A stretch of DNA of 64,000 bases from Flavisolibacter ginsenosidimutans. GTDB lineage: Bacteria; Bacteroidota; Bacteroidia; Chitinophagales; Chitinophagaceae. The notes beneath the pieces were generated by a model. The model ran no database searches, was not told the DNA's origin, and saw nothing but the letters and a program-made list of their open reading frames with translations. The position numbers and the translations under genes were made by a program. The stretch is from positions 1,984,001-2,048,000 of the forward strand of contig NZ_CP042433.1 in assembly GCF_007970805.1 (NCBI RefSeq). The letters are read 5' to 3'. This document shows positions 37,876 through 46,347 of the stretch, piece after piece (position 1 is the stretch's first letter; each line of letters begins with the position of its first letter).

Positions 37876-37955
37876 TATATTTTTGAACCAGAGGTTCGTC
37901 TATCTATAAAGCTTTCGTTGCGTCGCACTCTTGTACTGCAACAAGTCTATTCGGC
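37876..37955 (+). repeat. R1 element, left half, abutting R2
   Basis: TTTTTGAACCAGAGGTTC, then CGTTGCGTCGCACTCTTG, then ACAAGTCTATTCGGC reproduces the R1 left half. It runs directly into an R2 element, as if R2 had inserted into or replaced the other half. Confidence 0.6.
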
Positions 37956-38144
37956 GGCCCATCCCGACCTTCCCGGTGGGAAGGCCATCCGCCGCACTGG
38001 GCCAGCTTTGCGACGTTTCGTTTTTATTTCAATTCTTACAAAAGCATTGAGCTTATCTTTTGCTTTCAACCTGTTTCCACCCTTCCCACCGGGAAGGGCT
38101 TTAGCACCATCAACAACAATCAGAAATGGTTGTTGGGATGGGCC
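37956..38144. repeat. R2 element, copy A
   Basis: Terminal inverted GGCCCATCCC and GGGATGGGCC (10 bases) enclose a second exact inverted pair, CCTTCCCGGTGGGAAGG (37968-37984) and CCTTCCCACCGGGAAGG (38081-38097), each itself a hairpin. The 188 bases match copy B at 42.7 kb without difference by my reading. No ORF. It lies between cysJ and cysI. Confidence 0.85.
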
Positions 38145-38146
38145 GT

Positions 38147-39955
38147 TTAAAACACCTCCTTCTCGTAACGCCCAGCCTTTTTCAACTCTGCGAAATATTT
38201 TGCAGCTTCTTCTTCTGAAATGTTTTTGCCTTCTTTGATAATTTGCTTCAAAGCGCTTTCAACCTTTTCGTGCAACGGGCCTTTCTCGCCGCACAAGTAA
38301 ACGCTTGCGCCGCCTTCAATCCATTCGAACAATTCTTTTGCGTGTTGCAGCATCTTGTGCTCTACATAAATTCTCTCTTCACCATCGCGACTAAACGCTA
38401 CGTTCATTTTTGTAAGCGAGCCTGTTGCTAAATATGATTGCCATTCGGTTTGATAAAGAAAGTCCGTAGCAAAATGTTGCTCGCCGAAGAACAACCAACT
38501 GCGGCCGGTAGCACCTTGTGCATCGCGTTCGGCAACGAAGGAACGGTATGGCGCAATGCCAATGCCGGGGCCAATCATGACGATGTCTTTTTCGGGAGCG
38601 GGCAACTTGAACGCACGGTTCTTGTGAATGTAAAAACGAAACACAGTGCCTACTTCAATCTCGCCCATAAACTCACTGCACAAACCAAAATGTTGGTTGT
38701 CTTCCAACAAAAAGCTGTGCTTGCCAACCGTGAGGTGCAGTTCACCTTCGTGCACCGATGGTGACGAAGAAATGGAGTACAATCGCGGTGCAATTGACTT
38801 GAGCAACTTTATCACTTCTGCGCCTTGCGCGGCATCTTTCACCGGGTAAATGCGCAACAGGTCTTTGAAATCCATGCGGGTGTCGGGAATCTGCTGACCC
38901 GTTATTTCCGCATAGCTTTTTATGGTTGACGTTAGCAGGTAGCAAACGTTCAATTCTTTTGTCAACAACTCTTCTACCGTGCCGTTGTGCTTTTCGGTTG
39001 CAAGCACAAGGTTGCGGTCAATGCCCGTTAGCTTAATGATTTCTTCAACAACTGCTTTCCTGTTTTGCGGAACAATGGCGAGTGAATCACCGGGTTCGTA
39101 TTCCACGACTTCGTTCACACCAATCTCAATGTGAAAGGTTTGCTTTTTAGAGCCGCGGCCGTTCAGGTTTATGTTGGTGAGAATTTTCCCTTCGTAATAT
39201 CTTTTGCCTTTTACTTTTGGCGCGGCCGGTACTGCTGCCGTTGAAGGCTTTGCGGCAACCACTTCTTTTGGCGCATCTGCAGATTTAACCGTATTCAGAA
39301 CAGTGTCAAACCATTTGTCCGCATCTTCTTCGTAATCCACGTCGCATTTTTGCAAAGGGGCCAAACGATTACCGCCCAACTTTTGCAACTGCGCATTCAC
39401 GTCTTCACCGGTTTTGCAAAACAGTGGGTAAGCCGCATCGCCCAATCCCAGTACGGCGTATTTTAAATTGGGCAACGCAAGGCCGCCGGCAAACAAAGCA
39501 TCGTAAAACTTTTTTGCGCCAACCGGTGGCTCGCCTTCGCCTTGCGTGCTGATGACAACAAAGAACAATTCTTCTTTTAAAAGATCTGCTGGTTTGTATT
39601 GATCAAGTGAAACAAGCTTTACTTGCACGCCGCTTTTCTTTGCTTTACCTGCAAGTGCAATTGCGAGCTTTTTTGCGTTGCCGGTTTCGGTACCGTATGC
39701 AAGAGTGATGCGGCCCGTCCCAACCTTCCCGGTGGAAAGGCCATCCGCGCTGCGCTCCTCGCTGTGCGGGGACTCAACATTTTTATTCGATTCTTCAACA
39801 GGCGAGGGCTGTGGGTTGGAAAGCCCCTCCACCGGAAGGGTTTGGGGAGGCCGTCCCAACAAGCCCGTCAAATAACCGTTCAGCCAAATGATTTCATCGC
39901 GGGACAAATCTGCCACCAACTCGTTTACAAGCCTAATTTTTGCGTTCCCTAACAT
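38147..39955 (-). CDS. cysJ: Assimilatory sulfite reductase (NADPH), flavoprotein subunit
   Basis: This 602-residue diflavin reductase carries electrons from NADPH through FAD and FMN to CysI. It has an N-terminal helix (DLSRDEIIWLNGYLTGLL), an FMN flavodoxin domain (LAYGTETGNAKKLA; VVISTQGEGEPP; AVLGLGDAAYPLFC), a FAD domain (RLYSISSSPSVHEGELHLTV) and an NADPH domain (MIGPGIGIAPYRSF; FFGEQHFATDFLYQ; YLCGEKGPLHEKV). Residues about 35-81, a Pro/Ser/Glu-rich linker, are encoded by a diverged R2 repeat read in frame. That linker is variable in the family, so function is probably kept. Confidence 0.95.
   Translation of the reverse strand: MLGNAKIRLVNELVADLSRDEIIWLNGYLTGLLGRPPQTLPVEGLSNPQPSPVEESNKNVESPHSEERSADGLSTGKVGTGRITLAYGTETGNAKKLAIALAGKAKKSGVQVKLVSLDQYKPADLLKEELFFVVISTQGEGEPPVGAKKFYDALFAGGLALPNLKYAVLGLGDAAYPLFCKTGEDVNAQLQKLGGNRLAPLQKCDVDYEEDADKWFDTVLNTVKSADAPKEVVAAKPSTAAVPAAPKVKGKRYYEGKILTNINLNGRGSKKQTFHIEIGVNEVVEYEPGDSLAIVPQNRKAVVEEIIKLTGIDRNLVLATEKHNGTVEELLTKELNVCYLLTSTIKSYAEITGQQIPDTRMDFKDLLRIYPVKDAAQGAEVIKLLKSIAPRLYSISSSPSVHEGELHLTVGKHSFLLEDNQHFGLCSEFMGEIEVGTVFRFYIHKNRAFKLPAPEKDIVMIGPGIGIAPYRSFVAERDAQGATGRSWLFFGEQHFATDFLYQTEWQSYLATGSLTKMNVAFSRDGEERIYVEHKMLQHAKELFEWIEGGASVYLCGEKGPLHEKVESALKQIIKEGKNISEEEAAKYFAELKKAGRYEKEVF
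39712..39853. repeat. R2 element, diverged copy D inside the cysJ coding sequence
   Basis: GGCCCGTCCCAACCTTCCCGG opens the element, followed by GTGGAAAGGCCATCCGC; CCTCCACCGGAAGGG and GGGGAGGCC close it. These are R2 end sequences with substitutions. The length keeps the cysJ frame open and it encodes the linker between the N-terminal helix and the flavodoxin domain. Confidence 0.75.
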
Positions 39956-39964
39956 CGTTTTTGT

Positions 39965-40789
39965 TTATGCTGTTAAGCCAAGAATTTCAATTTTTGCTGC
40001 CGTTCTTTCGTACAGTGCTTTAAAGTATTCCGCCGTTTGCGATTCTTCGGCCTTCCAACCAAAGCCTTTGTGCAAACCCACCACTTTTCCAATAATCACA
40101 AGCGTCGGAGAAAAGAAAACTTTATTCTTCAAGGTTGTTTCGTAATCGTACAAACTGCTGGTGTAAACTTTTTGGTAAGGTGTTGTAGCTTGTTCAATCA
40201 CGGCCAATTCTTTTGCCGCGTCAATTCTATTTTCAACAAGCTTTGCTACTACGTTGTCCAGCGTTTCCGACGACATGTAAAACACAAGCGTGTCTTCGGT
40301 TTGCGCCAACTCTTTCCAATAAGCTTCCGTTACCACATCCGATTTATACGCCGTTAAAAAACGAACCGCTGTGGAATGATTGCGTGCTGTAAGCGGAATA
40401 CCGGTGTAAGCCGCGGCACCCAAGGCAGCGGTAATGCCGGGCACAAGCTCATAAGGAATTTGATGCTGCACGAGTGTTTCCAATTCGTCCAATACGTTAG
40501 AGAAAATGGAAACATCACCGCCTTTCAAACGAACCACAAGCTTTCCTTCGCCAGCATAACTCACCATCAATTCATTAATAGTTTGTTGCGGGGTGGAAGC
40601 GCCTCTTCTGCATTGCTTGCCCACGTAAACAATCTCCGCCTGCGGCGAAACATAGGCCCGCAAAATCTCAGGGCTGACCAGTCGGTCGGCTAACACTACG
40701 TCGGCGGTTTGCAGGATCCGATAAGCCTTGATGGTAAGCAGTTCCGGGTCGCCCGGTCCGGCTCCTATGAGAATCACTTTGCCTTTCAT
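39965..40789 (-). CDS. cobA: Uroporphyrinogen-III C-methyltransferase
   Basis: This 274-residue SUMT methylates uroporphyrinogen III twice to precorrin-2, using SAM. Motifs: VILIGAGPGDPELLTIKAYRIL, ADVVLADRLVS, YVGKQCRRGASTPQQTINELM, VVRLKGGDVSIF and VPGITAALGAAAYTGIPLTAR. It lacks the CysG N-terminal unit, which is instead supplied by the TSUP fusion in the same cluster. Its product serves CysI siroheme here. The ATG gives MKGKVILIG; the frame is open 13 codons upstream. It sits 9 bases before cysJ. Confidence 0.94.
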   Translation of the reverse strand: MKGKVILIGAGPGDPELLTIKAYRILQTADVVLADRLVSPEILRAYVSPQAEIVYVGKQCRRGASTPQQTINELMVSYAGEGKLVVRLKGGDVSIFSNVLDELETLVQHQIPYELVPGITAALGAAAYTGIPLTARNHSTAVRFLTAYKSDVVTEAYWKELAQTEDTLVFYMSSETLDNVVAKLVENRIDAAKELAVIEQATTPYQKVYTSSLYDYETTLKNKVFFSPTLVIIGKVVGLHKGFGWKAEESQTAEYFKALYERTAAKIEILGLTA

Positions 40790-40958: not shown

Positions 40959-41873
40959 TTATTGAAACAATCCTTCAATGGATAGATAGCGTTCGCCGGT
41001 ATCGTAGTTGAAGGTTAGAACCTTTGCGCCTTTTGGAATTTCAGGAAGTTTTTTTGCCACGGCCGCAACGGCCGCGCCGGTTGAAATGCCGGCAAGAATT
41101 CCCTCTTCTTTTGCAAGGCGTTGTGCGTAATCGAATGCCTCGTCTTTTTCCGCTGTAATCACACCGTCCAATACTTCACGGTTTAAGATGGAAGGAATGA
41201 AATTGGCACCCAGTCCTTGCAAGGGATGCGGGCCCGGTGCCCCGCCACTGAGGATTGGTGAAAGTGCCGGCTCAACAGCAAACACTTTTAGTCCCGGAAT
41301 GGCTTTCTTAACCACTTCCGCAATCGCGGTTATGTGTCCGCCCGTGCCCACACCGGTAATGACATAATCCAGTCCGCTTTCCTTAAAATCGTTGATGATT
41401 TCCTGTGCGGTTGTTTTGCGGTGAATTTCCACATTGGCTTCGTTATCGAACTGTTGTGGTATCCATGCGTTTGGTGTTTCTTTCGCCAACTCCTGTGCTT
41501 TTTCAACGGCTCCTTTCATCCCTTTCTCACGTGCCGACAAAACAAACTCAGCGCCGTACAACGACATTAAACGGCGGCGTTCAATGCTCATGCTTTCGGG
41601 CATTACCAAAATAAGTTTGTATCCTTTTACTGCTGCAACAAGCGCCAGTCCAATGCCGGTGTTGCCAGAAGTTGGTTCAATAATGACGCTGTCTTTTTTC
41701 AGAATTCCTTTTTGCTCGGCGTCCTCAATCATTGACAGTGCGATGCGGTCTTTTATGCTGGCGCCAGGATTGGAGCGTTCGAGCTTAATCCATACTTCGT
41801 GGTCGGGGAAAAGTTTTTTTAACCGTACGTGCGGTGTATTGCCTATCGTTTCTAAAATGCTGTTCGCTTTCAT
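40959..41873 (-). CDS. cysK: Cysteine synthase A (O-acetylserine sulfhydrylase)
   Basis: This 304-residue PLP enzyme makes cysteine from O-acetylserine and sulfide. PLP Lys41 lies in [16 protein letters not shown]; the substrate loop is [12 protein letters not shown] and the phosphate-binding loop is GVGTGGHI. It has normal length from the ATG at 41873; the upstream open frame has no family similarity. It follows cysE by 11 bases, so both steps of cysteine synthesis are coupled. Confidence 0.95.
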
Positions 41874-41884
41874 CGTTAGATGTT

Positions 41885-42715
41885 TTAGATGATAAAATTG
41901 ATTGGTTCTGGGAATGGGTTTTTGTCTTTGATTTTTATTTCGCTCTTGTGGTACACAACCGAATTTGACGGCACGCTGTACGTGAGCCAAACGTTGCCGC
42001 CGATGATGCTTCCTTTGCCAATGACGGTTTCACCGCCGAGGATCGTGGCGCCGGAATAAATCACCACTTCGTCTTCAATGGTTGGATGACGTTTGCTTCT
42101 GGCCAATTCCTTGGCAACGTTTAGTGCACCAAGAGTTACACCCTGATAAAGCTTTACGTTGCTGCCGATCACCGTTGTTTCACCTACGACGATTCCAGTT
42201 CCGTGGTCAATGGCAAAGGCAGTTCCGATTCTTGCTCCCGGGTGAATGTCGATGCCTGTTTTGCTGTGTGCGAATTCAGTAAACAATCGTGGCAAAAGCT
42301 TTACGCCTTGCTTCCACAACTGGTGCGACAAGCGATAAACAACCGTAGCAAAAAAACCGGGATAAGCAACCACCACTTCGGCAATGCTTTGCGCTGCGGG
42401 GTCGAAGTCGAGAATGGCTTGCGCGTCTTGCAAAAGAATTTTATAGAGATGCGGCAACTCAGCGAAGAAAGTGTTGGCAATCGTTTCTACTTCTGCTTCG
42501 TTCTTGCTGGTTTCTGCCAGCAGCAAAGCAAGGTTGCTTTTTAACCGTTTGTACTCGGCTTCCGTTTGAACATAATTCATTTTCTTTCCACCGGCCACAA
42601 AAAGAAAGTGAAACGCATCGCCAACGAAGGTTTCAGCGGTATGCTTGTCCGGAAAGCGTTGCGAAAGTTCGCTCCGGCTCTCCGTTAATTCGTACAAAAA
42701 ATTTGCTTCGTTCAT
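41885..42715 (-). CDS. cysE: Serine O-acetyltransferase
   Basis: This 276-residue enzyme acetylates serine to O-acetylserine. An N-terminal helical domain precedes a left-handed beta-helix with hexapeptide repeats: [20 protein letters not shown] (catalytic His region), VVIGETTVIG-type turns, and [10 protein letters not shown]. The tail ends PINFII, and a C-terminal Ile is the usual anchor for binding CysK in the cysteine synthase complex; that interaction is inferred. The R2 copy B begins 9 bases upstream of its start. Confidence 0.92.
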
Positions 42716-42724
42716 TTTTGTTCA

Positions 42725-42912
42725 GCCCATCCCGACCTTCCCGGTGGGAAGGCCATCCGCCGCACTGGGCCAGCTTTGCGACGTTTCGTTTTTATTTCAA
42801 TTCTTACAAAAGCATTGAGCTTATCTTTTGCTTTCAACCTGTTTCCACCCTTCCCACCGGGAAGGGCTTTAGCACCATCAACAACAATCAGAAATGGTTG
42901 TTGGGATGGGCC
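42725..42912. repeat. R2 element, copy B
   Basis: This is the same 188-base sequence as copy A and in the same orientation, 4.77 kb away. It lies between the cysN stop and the cysE start inside the sulfur cluster and carries both inverted pairs. In the transcript it would form strong hairpins. Confidence 0.85.
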
Positions 42913-42913
42913 G

Positions 42914-44155
42914 CTATTGCAGCAACAAGGCGCCAGAAGTCATGTTGCTCGTTTGATCAATCAATATCGCGGTGCCGTTCGAAGACAACTTCGTGTACGC
43001 ATCATAAGACAACGGCTCCGCTGTTTTTATCCGCACTTTTACCACGTCGTTCAATTTGGCCGACTGCGGCGAAGGATGTTGTTCCAGCGTATTCACGTCC
43101 AGCTTGTATTCGATTTCTTTAACAACCGCTTTCACTCTGCGTGAGCCTTTTTGCAAAAGATATTTAGCCCCTTCGTGTAATTCCTTTGCGTCCATCCAGC
43201 ACACAAAAGCGTCGAACTCCTGTTCAAACTTTGGCAACTCGTGCTCTTTCACAAAAGCGTCGCCGCGGCTGATGTCAATGTCGTCTTTCAGGTGAAGAAT
43301 CACGCTCTGCCCGGCATAAGCTTCTTTCACTTCTTTCCCGGCTGCTTCAATCGCACTGATGGATGAAGTAAGGCCTTCGGGAAGAATTCGCACGACATCG
43401 TCAACTGCGTAGCTGCCGTTACTGATTCGTCCGGCGTAGCCACGGTAATCGTGCAAGTCTTCCGACTGCGGACGAATGACGTACTGAACTTGAAAGCGTG
43501 CAGGCGCATCGGTTGCACCGTGCGTCACTTCCAAATTCTCTAAATAAGAAAGCAAGGGTTCGCCTTTGTACCAGGGAAATTCAGGCGAGGTTGTTATGAT
43601 GTTATCACCTTTCAACGCACTCATTGGAATGTAGTAAACGTCTTGCAGGTTTAATTGCTTAGCCAGTGCTTTGTATTGTTCAACAATGACATCGTAAACA
43701 ACTTTGTCGTAATCCACCATGTCCATTTTGTTGATGGCAACAATCACGTGTGGAATTTGGAGCAAGGAAGCAATGATGGAATGACGCTTGGTTTGTTCCA
43801 CCACGCCGTTACGGGCATCAACAAGGATGACAATGCAATCAGCATTGGAAGCTCCGGTGATCATGTTGCGGGTGTACTGTATGTGCCCCGGTGCGTCGGC
43901 AATAATGAACTTACGCTTGGGCGTAGAAAAATATTTATACGCTACGTCAATAGTAATGCCTTGTTCTCTTTCGGCACGCAAACCATCGGTCAGCAAAGCC
44001 AAGTCAATCTCCGAATGCACCGCGTTCTTACTTTGCTTTTTCAGCGTTTCAAATTGGTCAACAAGAATGCTTTTGCTATCGTAAAGCAAGCGGCCGATCA
44101 AGGTGCTTTTTCCATCATCAACGCTGCCGGCGGTTATAAATCGTAAAAGGTCCAT
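42914..44155 (-). CDS. cysN: Sulfate adenylyltransferase subunit 1 (GTPase)
   Basis: This 413-residue EF-Tu-like GTPase drives sulfate activation to APS with CysD. G motifs: AGSVDDGKSTLIGRL (residues 9-23), DAPGHIQYTRNM and NKMDMVDYD. The switch region reads ERE-QGITIDVAYKYF. There is no fused APS kinase (CysC) domain, in keeping with direct reduction of APS by the cysH product. It follows cysD by 83 bases containing a word palindrome. Confidence 0.95.
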   Translation of the reverse strand: MDLLRFITAGSVDDGKSTLIGRLLYDSKSILVDQFETLKKQSKNAVHSEIDLALLTDGLRAEREQGITIDVAYKYFSTPKRKFIIADAPGHIQYTRNMITGASNADCIVILVDARNGVVEQTKRHSIIASLLQIPHVIVAINKMDMVDYDKVVYDVIVEQYKALAKQLNLQDVYYIPMSALKGDNIITTSPEFPWYKGEPLLSYLENLEVTHGATDAPARFQVQYVIRPQSEDLHDYRGYAGRISNGSYAVDDVVRILPEGLTSSISAIEAAGKEVKEAYAGQSVILHLKDDIDISRGDAFVKEHELPKFEQEFDAFVCWMDAKELHEGAKYLLQKGSRRVKAVVKEIEYKLDVNTLEQHPSPQSAKLNDVVKVRIKTAEPLSYDAYTKLSSNGTAILIDQTSNMTSGALLLQ

Positions 44156-44168
44156 AATGTTTTTTTTG

Positions 44169-44240
44169 GTGAAACGTCAGACGTGAGAAGTGAGACAAAG
44201 GAGTCTTCTGTTTGACGTTTAACGTTTCACGTCTGACGTT
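44169..44240. repeat. Word palindrome (ACGTCAGACGTGA type)
   Basis: AACGTCAGACGTGA at 44173-44186 pairs with TCACGTCTGACGTT at 44227-44240. Extra words GAGAAGTGAGAC and GTCTTCTG pair inside. It lies between cysD and cysN, overlaps the cysD stop codon and is related to the element at 2.9-3.1 kb. Confidence 0.7.
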
Positions 44241-45144
44241 AAAAATATCCGTTCACTTTTCTGTCTTCCATTGCCGCTTCTGAAATGCGGTCGTCTATTC
44301 TTGTTTCGCCGCGTTCGCTGATTCTTGTTGCCGTGATTTCAGAAATAATATCATCAATGGTCGATGCACTGCTTTCTACCGCAGCCGTACACGTCATGTC
44401 GCCAACCGTGCGATAGCGAACACGTTTTGTTGAAACAACATCGCCTTTATCAATACGGATGAATTCGGAGGTTGCAATCAACTGACCTTCGTATTCAAGA
44501 ATCTCTCTTTCGTGCGAGAAATAGATGGAAGGCAAGCTAATTTTTTCGCGGCGGATATAATTCCAAACGTCAAGCTCTGTCCAGTTTGAGATGGGAAACA
44601 CGCGAACGTTTTCGCCTTTGTTGATTTTTCCGTTGTAAATGTTCCAGAGTTCGGGCCGTTGCTTCTTTGGCTCCCATCCGCCAAATTCATCACGAATGGA
44701 GAAGATGCGCTCTTTCGCTCTTGCTTTTTCTTCGTCGCGACGAGCGCCACCAATACAAGCGTCAAATTCAAATTCTTCAATGGTATCGAGAAGCGTAAAG
44801 GTTTGCAAAGCGTTGCGGCTGGCAAGTTTGCCCGTTTTTTCTTTTAAACCTTTTGCCTTGATGGTGTCTTCTACTTTGCGAACAATCAGTTGTTCGCCCA
44901 ACGTTTTTGCAAGGTTGTCGCGGAAGTCCAGTGCTTCTTGAAAATTGTGGCCTGTATCAATGTGCACGAGCGGAAAAGGAAACTTGCCGGGACGAAAGGC
45001 TTTCAACGCAAGGTGCACAAGCGTTATTGAATCTTTTCCGCCTGAAAACAACAAGGCCGGTTTTTCAAACTGCCCAGCCACTTCACGCAGAATGTAAATC
45101 GCTTCTGCTTCCAATTGGTCTAAATAATCTAATCGTGAGTTCAT
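44239..45144 (-). CDS. cysD: Sulfate adenylyltransferase subunit 2
   Basis: This 301-residue PP-loop ATP pyrophosphatase forms APS from ATP and sulfate, powered by CysN. PP loop: LLFSGGKDSITLVHLAL (SGGKDS at 34-39). Further family blocks are HIDTGHNFQEALDFRD, GGARRDEEKARAKER and the C-terminal RYRTVGDMTCTAAVES. The tail ends KVNGYF as in other CysD. It starts 9 bases after cysH. Confidence 0.95.
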   Translation of the reverse strand: MNSRLDYLDQLEAEAIYILREVAGQFEKPALLFSGGKDSITLVHLALKAFRPGKFPFPLVHIDTGHNFQEALDFRDNLAKTLGEQLIVRKVEDTIKAKGLKEKTGKLASRNALQTFTLLDTIEEFEFDACIGGARRDEEKARAKERIFSIRDEFGGWEPKKQRPELWNIYNGKINKGENVRVFPISNWTELDVWNYIRREKISLPSIYFSHEREILEYEGQLIATSEFIRIDKGDVVSTKRVRYRTVGDMTCTAAVESSASTIDDIISEITATRISERGETRIDDRISEAAMEDRKVNGYF

Positions 45145-45153
45145 ATAAAAAGT

Positions 45154-45882
45154 TTACGTCGTTGCTGTTTGATGTACGTGTAAGCCGCATTCTTTTTTGC
45201 TGGCGTCTTCCCACCACCAGCGGCCAGCACGAAAATCTTCACCGGGTTTGATGGCACGAGTACAAGGCGCACAACCAATGCTGACAAAGCCGCGATCATG
45301 CAAAGCATTATAAGGCACGTTACGCTGGTCAATGTATTGCCGCACCTCTTCGGTTGCCCAATGCAGCAGCGGATTGTATTTAATGATTTGATTCGCTTCG
45401 TCCCACTCAAGTATCTGCATGTCGCTGCGGTTAGGCGAGTGTTCCGCACGAAGTCCGGTAATCCAAACCGCCTTGCCGGCCAACGCTCTTTTCAAGGGCT
45501 CTACTTTGCGGATGTGGCAGCAGCTTTTTCTGTTTTCAACCGATTCGTAAAATGAATTCGGACCGTACTCCCGAACAAATTCCTGCAATTTTTCCGTTTG
45601 CGGATAATAAGCGTCAATCGTTAATTGATAGCGTTCCAACGTACGGCTCCAGGTTGAATACGTCTCGGGAAACAAACGCCCTGTATCCAATGTGAAAATG
45701 GAAACAGGAATGGCCGTTTCACTGATGTAATCGGTGATGACCTGATCCTCGTAACTAAAGCTGGTGGAGAAGACGAGTTGTTCCGGAAATGCTTCGTTAA
45801 GTTTTTCCAGCGCTTCGTTTATGGACAAGCCCGAAATGTACTGTTGCAAAGACAGAAAACTGTCTTTAAGCTGAATAGACAT
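45154..45882 (-). CDS. cysH: Adenylyl-sulfate (APS) reductase
   Basis: This 242-residue PAPS/APS reductase family protein converts activated sulfate to sulfite. Two Cys pairs, Cys121-Cys122 (RKSCCHIRK) and Cys204/Cys207 (IGCAPCTRA), are the [4Fe-4S] ligands that mark APS-using enzymes, and the catalytic Cys232 lies in KKECGLHV. No APS kinase gene accompanies it, in agreement. First structural gene of the cluster, 74 bases after the Cys-rich leader ORF. Confidence 0.94.
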   Translation of the reverse strand: MSIQLKDSFLSLQQYISGLSINEALEKLNEAFPEQLVFSTSFSYEDQVITDYISETAIPVSIFTLDTGRLFPETYSTWSRTLERYQLTIDAYYPQTEKLQEFVREYGPNSFYESVENRKSCCHIRKVEPLKRALAGKAVWITGLRAEHSPNRSDMQILEWDEANQIIKYNPLLHWATEEVRQYIDQRNVPYNALHDRGFVSIGCAPCTRAIKPGEDFRAGRWWWEDASKKECGLHVHQTATT

Positions 45883-45956
45883 AGCCTAATCGTTTTACGT
45901 GAACAAAAACTTTAAATAGAAAGCAATCGTGTAAGAGAGAGAAGTTGCAAGAGGAC

Positions 45957-46067
45957 TTAACACTTACAACAGCAAGCGGCGAACTTTTGACAACAACAAC
46001 AAGCAGCCGCAAACTTGAAGGCGTTGGCTACAGTTGTCTTTGAGGGAAATGTTGTTGTCTTTTTCAT
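45957..46067 (-). CDS. Poly-cysteine leader peptide of the cys cluster
   Basis: This 36-codon ORF starts MKKTTTFPSKTT and ends AAACCCCQKFAACCCKC-stop, so 8 of the last 14 codons are Cys (seven TGT, one TGC). It lies between a SAM-I riboswitch terminator and cysH, on the same strand. This is the layout expected for a leader at which ribosomes stall when Cys-tRNA is scarce. Poly-Cys upstream ORFs controlling cysteine genes are known in mycobacteria; I infer a similar use here. No strong terminator is visible between its stop and cysH, so control may act on translation, mRNA stability or Rho. Confidence 0.75.
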   Translation of the reverse strand: MKKTTTFPSKTTVANAFKFAAACCCCQKFAACCCKC

Positions 46068-46110
46068 TGTCGTTAAAAATTGATCGGAAAGCTCATCACG
46101 GAAAGTGCCA

Positions 46111-46145
46111 AATAAAAAAGCACCGCTGATTTGTCAGAGGTGCTT
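46111..46145 (-). terminator. Riboswitch-controlled terminator upstream of the cys leader
   Basis: AAGCACC/GGTGCTT with inner CTGA/TCAG forms the hairpin; on the minus strand TTTTTTATTT follows. The 5' arm includes TCTGAC, complementary to GTCAGA, which occurs twice at the 3' end of the riboswitch. Antiterminator and terminator folds can therefore exclude each other. Confidence 0.8.
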
Positions 46146-46181
46146 GTACTATTTTGTTTGTTTAAAGTAGTGAGCATCTGA

Positions 46182-46321
46182 CTTATCTGACCGCGCCGTT
46201 GCGCGGATTGGAAGTGGCACCTTGCTTTCAACTGTATTACGTCACGCCAATCGTGTCAAAATTGTTGAAGACAGGTTGCCAAGGTTTCATCGGGCCAATT
46301 CCCTACACCTTTCTTGATAAG
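46182..46321 (-). promoter_or_regulatory. SAM-I (S-box) riboswitch
   Basis: On the minus strand the S-box core is readable in order: P1 5' strand CTTATCAAGAAAGG, then GGGAATTGGCCCGATGAAAC, then CCTTGGCAACC, a variable P3 region, then AAGGTGCCACTTCC, a P4 hairpin CCGCGC-AACG-GCGCGG, and the closing GATAAG. CTTATC (46316-46321) pairs with GATAAG (46182-46187) to close P1. When SAM binds, P1 should form and let the terminator at 46111-46145 fold, turning off the downstream cys genes. Length of about 140 bases is typical. Confidence 0.9.
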
Positions 46322-46339
46322 CAATAAAAGAACTTGAAG

Positions 46340-46347
46340 CGAATATA
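46340..46347 (-). promoter_or_regulatory. Possible -7 box of the riboswitch transcript
   Basis: TATATTCG on the minus strand differs at one base from TAnnTTTG and would start RNA about 10 bases before the riboswitch. No good -33 element is seen. The stretch 46348-46595 is AT-rich and contains no gene I can support. Confidence 0.3.

Follow-up and report, generated by a model that had tools for sequence, protein, structure and literature searches.

A short open reading frame (ORF) that ends in a run of cysteine codons stands in front of the sulfate assimilation genes of Flavisolibacter ginsenosidimutans, and it very probably serves as a leader peptide through which the ribosome would measure charged Cys-tRNA. 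This is by far the best of the readings that we weighed. The ORF, MKKTTTFPSKTTVANAFKFAAACCCCQKFAACCCKC, lies on the minus strand at 45957..46067 of the window (the whole 64,000-nt stretch of DNA that was analyzed), begins with ATG and encodes 36 aa, with eight Cys among the last 14 codons of its translation. The stop codon runs to 45957, and 74 nt separate it from the cysH start at 45882. An earlier, sequence-only reading of the window had described a 36-codon ORF with eight Cys in its last 14 codons and 74 nt to cysH, and was exact on each point.

The genes behind the ORF form a same-strand cluster, cysH-cysD-cysN-cysE-cysK-cobA-cysJ, all on the minus strand. The first and putatively regulated gene, cysH (45154..45882), encodes a (P)APS reductase (NF002537, TIGR02055, PF01507) and is followed by cysD (44239..45144; TIGR02039) and cysN (42914..44155; TIGR02034), for the small and large subunits of sulfate adenylyltransferase. 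The cysE-like serine O-acetyltransferase gene (41885..42715) scored below the curated cut-off of TIGR01172 and just above that of NF041874, and cysK, encoding cysteine synthase (40959..41870), scored above the TIGR01139 cut-off. A uroporphyrinogen-III C-methyltransferase of the cobA/cysG C-terminal type (39965..40789; TIGR01469 above cut-off, with a slightly longer frame searched) has the role of providing siroheme for sulfite reductase, and the last gene (38147..39955) is cysJ-like, for the flavoprotein subunit of sulfite reductase; it scored 527 bits with TIGR01931, short of the 668-bit cut-off. Nearly identical ORF translations beginning MKAKDKLNAFVRIEIKTKRRKAGPVRRMAFPPGRSG occur at window positions 37947-38069 and 42712-42837, which indicates an intergenic repeat of about 120 nt flanking genes of the cys cluster.

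Upstream of the leader ORF, a -7-like promoter box, TATATTCG, is predicted from sequence at 46340..46347 on the minus strand, and transcription would start near 46335. The flavobacterial promoter box is given as TAnnTTTG (PMC9723704), and TAnnTTTG or TAnnTTCG was also read by eye upstream of the riboswitch in loci L003-L007. The riboswitch itself is a SAM-I (S-box) aptamer, RF00162, at 46180..46323 on the minus strand (cmscan, 68.8 bits against a gathering threshold of 44.4), and it is likewise present upstream in five genus relatives that carry the leader. Its intrinsic terminator, recognized by sequence and folding, lies at 46110..46145 on the same strand as an AGCACC..GGTGCT hairpin followed by TTTTTTATTT. 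This hairpin, which was absent from the output of a simple terminator scan, folds with -15.2 kcal/mol; of the 12 pairs predicted for it, 6/6 relatives preserve 11, and 5/6 preserve the remaining one (alignment columns 74-101). The 3′ strand of P1 can pair with the 5′ arm of the terminator at -12.8 kcal/mol, as expected of a SAM-OFF switch, so that aptamer, terminator, and antiterminator are all found upstream of the leader. The likely order of elements is promoter, SAM-I switch, terminator, poly-Cys leader, and cysH, and an operon with the switch ahead of the leader should be expressed only when SAM and Cys-tRNA are both low. The sequence-only reading had placed the ORF and cysH correctly and had overlooked the riboswitch and its terminator.

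RNAalifold on six relatives kept the SAM terminator, and pairs inside the ORF varied too little for judgment. The same calculation gave a GTGATTG/CAATCAC hairpin between terminator and ORF in five of the six relatives. This stretch is conserved, and a second promoter could lie within it, in which case switch and leader would no longer be arranged in series. Between SAM terminator and leader ORF, loci L003-L007 carry a conserved element, GGTAAATTTTGATAAGTGATTG..CAATCAC, that is absent or changed in the window.

Within the genus, 18 genomes were searched and 12 had CysH. The SAM-I switch lies upstream of cysH at 6 of the 12 loci, and the leader is present in all six of these. The other six (L008-L013) have neither SAM-I nor leader; their CysH proteins are 53-60% identical to that of the window, and at L008, L009, L011, and L013 cysH sits close behind another reading frame. 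Loss of the ORF in close relatives had been named beforehand as evidence against a leader, and the outcome is divided: half of the genus cysH loci lack it, and every SAM-I locus has it. The order of SAM-I switch and leader recurs in Sediminibacterium (L018), in a Chitinophagales MAG (L081), and at L211.

Across the family, 176 of 294 genomes had a CysH match, and the 110 best-scoring matches together with L013 gave 111 loci. With at least three Cys including a CC pair as the rule, a leader stands before cysH at 69/111 loci, in 31 of 45 genera; by this rule it was not found at the other 42. Two loci are cut by a contig end, L108 with a leader and L010 without. Among 80 named loci, those from Pedobacter, Mucilaginibacter, Sphingobacterium, and most Flavobacterium gave no accepted cysH leader. 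Longer Cys-containing frames upstream in Pedobacter, Mucilaginibacter, and others (e.g., L051, L057, L059, and L078) were judged by eye not to be leaders.

Codon statistics were taken on 75 of a set of 83 leads, after removal of three false ones (L051, L221, and L115), two with over-long starts (L114 and L192), and three repeats (L105, L222, and L227, of L014, L045, and L226, respectively); L108 stood outside the lead, folding, and substitution sets. The leader peptides are mostly unrelated outside the Cys run. Examples are MNLFLAHTHTPFCCNSKCCCC, MVYPSHIERMRFCCCSPCCCCC (Rufibacter ruber, L016), MTRPNLSYIIVHQCCCCCGMRCC, and MEKMKKYMCCCCCCR, which have in common only a Cys run adjoining the stop. 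The last sense codon is Cys in 54 of the 75 leads, and Cys is encoded by TGT 289 times and by TGC 123 times. In eight hand-picked groups of close relatives, whose pairs are not independent, Cys columns showed 44 synonymous and 55 replacement changes, compared with 79 and 299 in other columns. The codon run is therefore kept while the rest of the peptide drifts, the pattern expected of an amino-acid-sensing leader, and the comparison of related cysH upstream regions that the sequence-only reading had proposed as a check came out in its favor across 31 of the 45 genera.

This pattern also bears on the idea that the peptide itself acts, by binding metal or thiols or as a precursor of the Cys-rich bacteriocin kind. 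A small Cys-rich product invites that thought, and there is a faint match to the listeriolysin S family (E 0.11; 12.3 bits, with the cut-off at 33). The peptides, however, share almost nothing except stop-adjacent Cys runs of varying length, their location is tied to cysH and cysS, and there was no Pfam match at E 1; we regard an active peptide as very improbable. Met makes up 6.6% of the internal non-Cys residues of the leader peptides, often shortly before the Cys run; the peptides may also sense Met, and some of the internal ATGs may be the true start.

The Cys runs were compared with chance in several ways. Two collections supplied 116 cysH loci, and within up to 350 nt upstream the last 10 codons of an ORF held four or more Cys at 32 of them and in 0/116 reverse complements, and 3 of 580 dinucleotide shuffles reached at least four Cys in the same last-10-codon test. 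Among the family cysH loci, at least four Cys in the last 16 codons were found at 63/111, against 3/111 reverse complements. Runs of TGY codons are common enough in the genome for the ORF to be thought a chance ORF or low-complexity (TGY)n background: in the window's genome, TGYTGYTGYTGY matches at 112 places and a control pattern at 86, and most of 30 inspected loci with the bare CCCC-stop pattern TGYTGYTGYTGYTAA looked like background in frame and surroundings, for which reason that pattern was rejected as a specific marker. A scan for at least four consecutive TGY codons, limited to ATG starts and covering the window and the surroundings of 100 of the 112 matches, gave 87 distinct runs. An in-frame ATG was present for 15 of these, of which two lie outside reading frames of more than 100 codons, and these two free-standing ORFs are the cysH leader and an ORF directly before cysS. 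The strand, shuffle, and genome-wide tests contradict the background explanation and rule out a chance ORF for the family as a whole, leaving it the slightest of probabilities here; the ORF is far beyond chance, and the sequence-only reading had already called such codon runs very improbable by chance. The gene behind a CCCC-stop match in L126 belonged to no Pfam family by its first 50 residues, the part searched.

The second free-standing ORF, MNAPRLLFCCCC, lies 51 nt before the cysteine--tRNA ligase gene, cysS, of the window's genome (202.7 bits with TIGR00435 for the first 215 residues, below the whole-protein cut-off of 340). A short ORF with a codon run matching the amino acid of the downstream gene is thus found at both cysH and cysS, and this copy, together with the spread over 31 of 45 genera, lends support to the earlier suggestion of a putative amino-acid-sensing leader; the cysS leader itself had been overlooked there. 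Family cysS upstream regions were obtained from 70 of 113 genomes with a match, and at least four Cys were present at 16/70 loci compared with 1/70 on the reverse strand; the remaining 54 fell below the leader score. For the cysS leader of the window's genome, there was no Rfam match up to E 1 (the Rfam copy may not include uORFC-8-2), and a U-run terminator was not seen in the sequence.

The same promoter box accompanies both kinds of leader. At cysH, 59 of the 80 leads counted (of 83) have a TAnnTTTG box 10-60 nt upstream of the leader's ATG; four windows lying farther upstream gave 1, 2, 1, and 2. In most cases the leader is thus the first ORF to be transcribed. Among 19 cysS leads, three of which have fewer than four Cys, TAnnTTTG lies at -11 to -15 of the ATG in 7, and TAnnTTTG or TAnnTTCG lies within 30 nt of the ATG in 16 (a count without a control). 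A box this close to the ATG suggests that many cysS leaders are leaderless or nearly so, whereas the window's cysH ORF lies behind a riboswitch; leaderless status is judged here by the promoter box only. In 11 of the 19 cysS leads (e.g., L327, L377, L379, and L382), a second TAnnTTTG box lies between the poly-Cys ORF and cysS, and a bypass promoter giving a leader-free transcript is possible there; the cysS spacer of the window's genome is without this second box. Separately, an operator-like palindrome, GTCTAC-N-GTAGAC, was noted upstream of the leader in 18/83 leads (e.g., L014, L020, L119, and L185) and at 2/113 loci without a lead; the pattern is absent from the window. At L020, a divergent 145-aa gene beside the palindrome reads by eye like a regulator of the Rrf2 family.

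The ORF, the SAM-I switch with its terminator, the cysS copy, and the conserved position of a Cys run amid drifting sequence can all be read from the DNA; from them we infer translation of the leader, stalling, the direction of the response, a single promoter, and an output step. RNA polymerase would start near 46335 and pass the SAM-I riboswitch first, and at high SAM the terminator at 46145-46110 would stop transcription. Transcripts that escape would carry the poly-Cys ORF. With Cys-tRNA plentiful, the ribosome would reach the stop and leave, and cysH and the following genes would be kept low; with Cys-tRNA short, a ribosome would be parked on the Cys run beside the stop, and the block on the operon would be relieved. 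SAM and Cys-tRNA would in this way be read in series. The same type of leader on cysS would yield more Cys-tRNA synthetase when charging fails. The output step would be either Rho termination in the naked spacer or release of structure around the cysH start.

The spacer between leader stop and cysH start (45883..45956, minus strand) is 74 nt long, pyrimidine-rich, and G-poor. Neither sequence inspection nor a terminator scan revealed an intrinsic terminator behind the window's leader, and hence no terminator with competing antiterminator of the classical trp/his type was found there. The sequence therefore does not show the output step, which could involve Rho or translation. Folding and spacer tests used 73 of the 75 leads, those with a spacer of at least 36 nt. 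In the last 45 nt before cysH, the 73 leader loci have C at.219 and G at.106, compared with.156 and.157 at 97 loci without a lead, a contrast confounded by phylogeny, and every one of 40 shuffles was more structured than the leader-cysH spacers. A C-rich, G-poor, unstructured spacer fits Rho loading. In Rho-dependent attenuation, the spacer after the stop would be a Rho loading site, shielded by a ribosome parked on the Cys run. The composition and lack of structure of the spacer and the missing intrinsic terminator argue for this, and the same idea has been put forward for mycobacterial cys leaders (PMC1262725); against it stands the phylogenetic confounding of the C/G contrast, and the Rho sites here are candidates only. 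We give Rho-dependent attenuation not quite an even chance.

In a translational output of the mycobacterial type, the leader RNA would fold onto the cysH start until opened by a ribosome halted at the Cys codons. Masking the ORF opened the cysH start region by 0.101, compared with 0.055 in shuffled spacers (0/20), and the duplex between the Cys run and the whole spacer was stronger than in shuffles (-9.95 versus -8.98 kcal/mol; 0/40); many cysS leaders also lie 11-15 nt behind a -7-like box and would be near-leaderless, as in mycobacteria. The opening, however, stems from the head of the ORF and not from the Cys run (8/20 shuffles), a gain above 0.1 on masking was seen at only 26/73 loci, and in the window's locus the opening is small (0.08). 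Pairing between the Cys run and the cysH start region was matched by 6/40 shuffles, and a permutation test of that pairing was null (191/300), with low power because the Cys runs are alike. Translational output is accordingly the more doubtful of the two, though a real possibility. With null start-pairing tests standing beside positive results for the spacer duplex and ORF masking, both are kept, and on these sequence-based results we lean slightly toward Rho.

In 2020, Canestrari reportedly described mycobacterial attenuation that responds to cysteine through leaderless short ORFs with polycysteine runs. In the mycobacterial model, a ribosome on the Cys tract blocks a structure that hides the downstream RBS, the Cys run being the element that hides the next start. 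The system found here resembles it in having a short ORF with contiguous Cys first in an operon of cysteine metabolism, and in a cysS ORF that, judged by the box, may be leaderless or nearly so. It differs in phylum and in its unrelated sequences, in the predicted 5′ UTR of ~15-45 nt of the cysH leaders, in the SAM-I switch in front of the leader in the window's genus, and in that sequestration of the RBS by the Cys run is unsupported here. PMC9031893 gives a description of Canestrari's finding, and PMC9094748 and PMC13236596 cite it. Cys leader peptides had been predicted in Actinobacteria in 2005 (Seliverstov, PMC1262725); those leaders, from Mycobacterium, P. acnes, and B. longum, are presented there as likewise having Cys runs near the stop and no terminator, with Rho suggested, and they differ in belonging to Actinobacteria and to the cys operon and cbs genes. 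In Rhodobacterales, the uORFC-8-2 motif predicted upstream of cysS (PMC8632094) is likewise a leader with Cys codons before cysS, but is reported with a tandem pair of Cys codons, an intrinsic terminator, and a two-stem structure ending in a U run, whereas the cysS leader of the window's genome has four Cys and no U-run terminator was seen.

Within Bacteroidota, the Bacteroid-trp leader (RF01692) is also leader-peptide control, though for Trp and with a structured leader in Rfam; one copy lies on the other strand of L067. A study of Flavobacterium psychrophilum mentions attenuation by leader peptides upstream of operons for amino acids, in passages that do not name cysteine (PMC9723704). The SAM-I switch (RF00162), present upstream with its terminator, senses SAM and not Cys-tRNA, and the poly-Cys ORF would be an added second stage. 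What is novel here is the phylum, the cysH and cysS targets, and a SAM-I switch in front of the leader; the sequence-only reading, which had no described case to name in Bacteroidota, agrees with literature searches that gave none, most subscription papers lying outside their coverage.

Taken more broadly, a ribosome-read Cys regulon of Bacteroidota, with fast-turning-over cysH leaders and near-leaderless cysS ones, independent in sequence of the mycobacterial leaders and with SAM-I in series in the window's genus, is a reading we hold somewhat probable. Were it true, ribosome-read cysteine control would extend to a phylum for which those searches found no case, evolution would be seen to retain codon runs while discarding the remaining peptide, and SAM-I plus poly-Cys leader would form a natural two-input series gate reading two sulfur metabolites on one transcript. 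A second, clean reporter is available in the cysS copy, and the many natural leaders amount to a set of existing mutants with which to separate Rho from translational output in bacteria that are not known to depend on Shine-Dalgarno sites.

Apparent attenuators of a different build stand before cysH elsewhere in Bacteroidota, and those of Flavobacterium had also been overlooked in the sequence-only reading. In two Flavobacterium genomes (L067, at 2584-2952, and L070) and in G357/L384, from another family of the same class, cysH is preceded by a tandem pair of Met- and Cys-rich leaders; MKKQVLNMMMCMCCSENEEGFAVR and MNTLTTITTILASTACVMMMCCMRNFARGRLLYYLL are examples. Behind each leader lies an intrinsic terminator, and its 5′ arm is able to pair with part of the ORF at -12 to -15 kcal/mol. 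The arm pair of the first leader differs on both sides between L067 (GAGGAG/CTCCTC) and L070 (GGGGAG/CTCCCC). Going by their sequences, the tandem leaders of L067, L070, and L384 look like textbook attenuators. When a Flavobacterium leader peptide was searched against the phylum, 97/395 genomes had matches at E ≤ 1. One match was clear, in G357 (E 5e-11); the others (E 0.02 or worse), including L385 after inspection, were taken as noise. In a Saprospiraceae MAG (L073, 2701-2900), a CCCC leader with an intrinsic terminator behind it was also observed before cysH.
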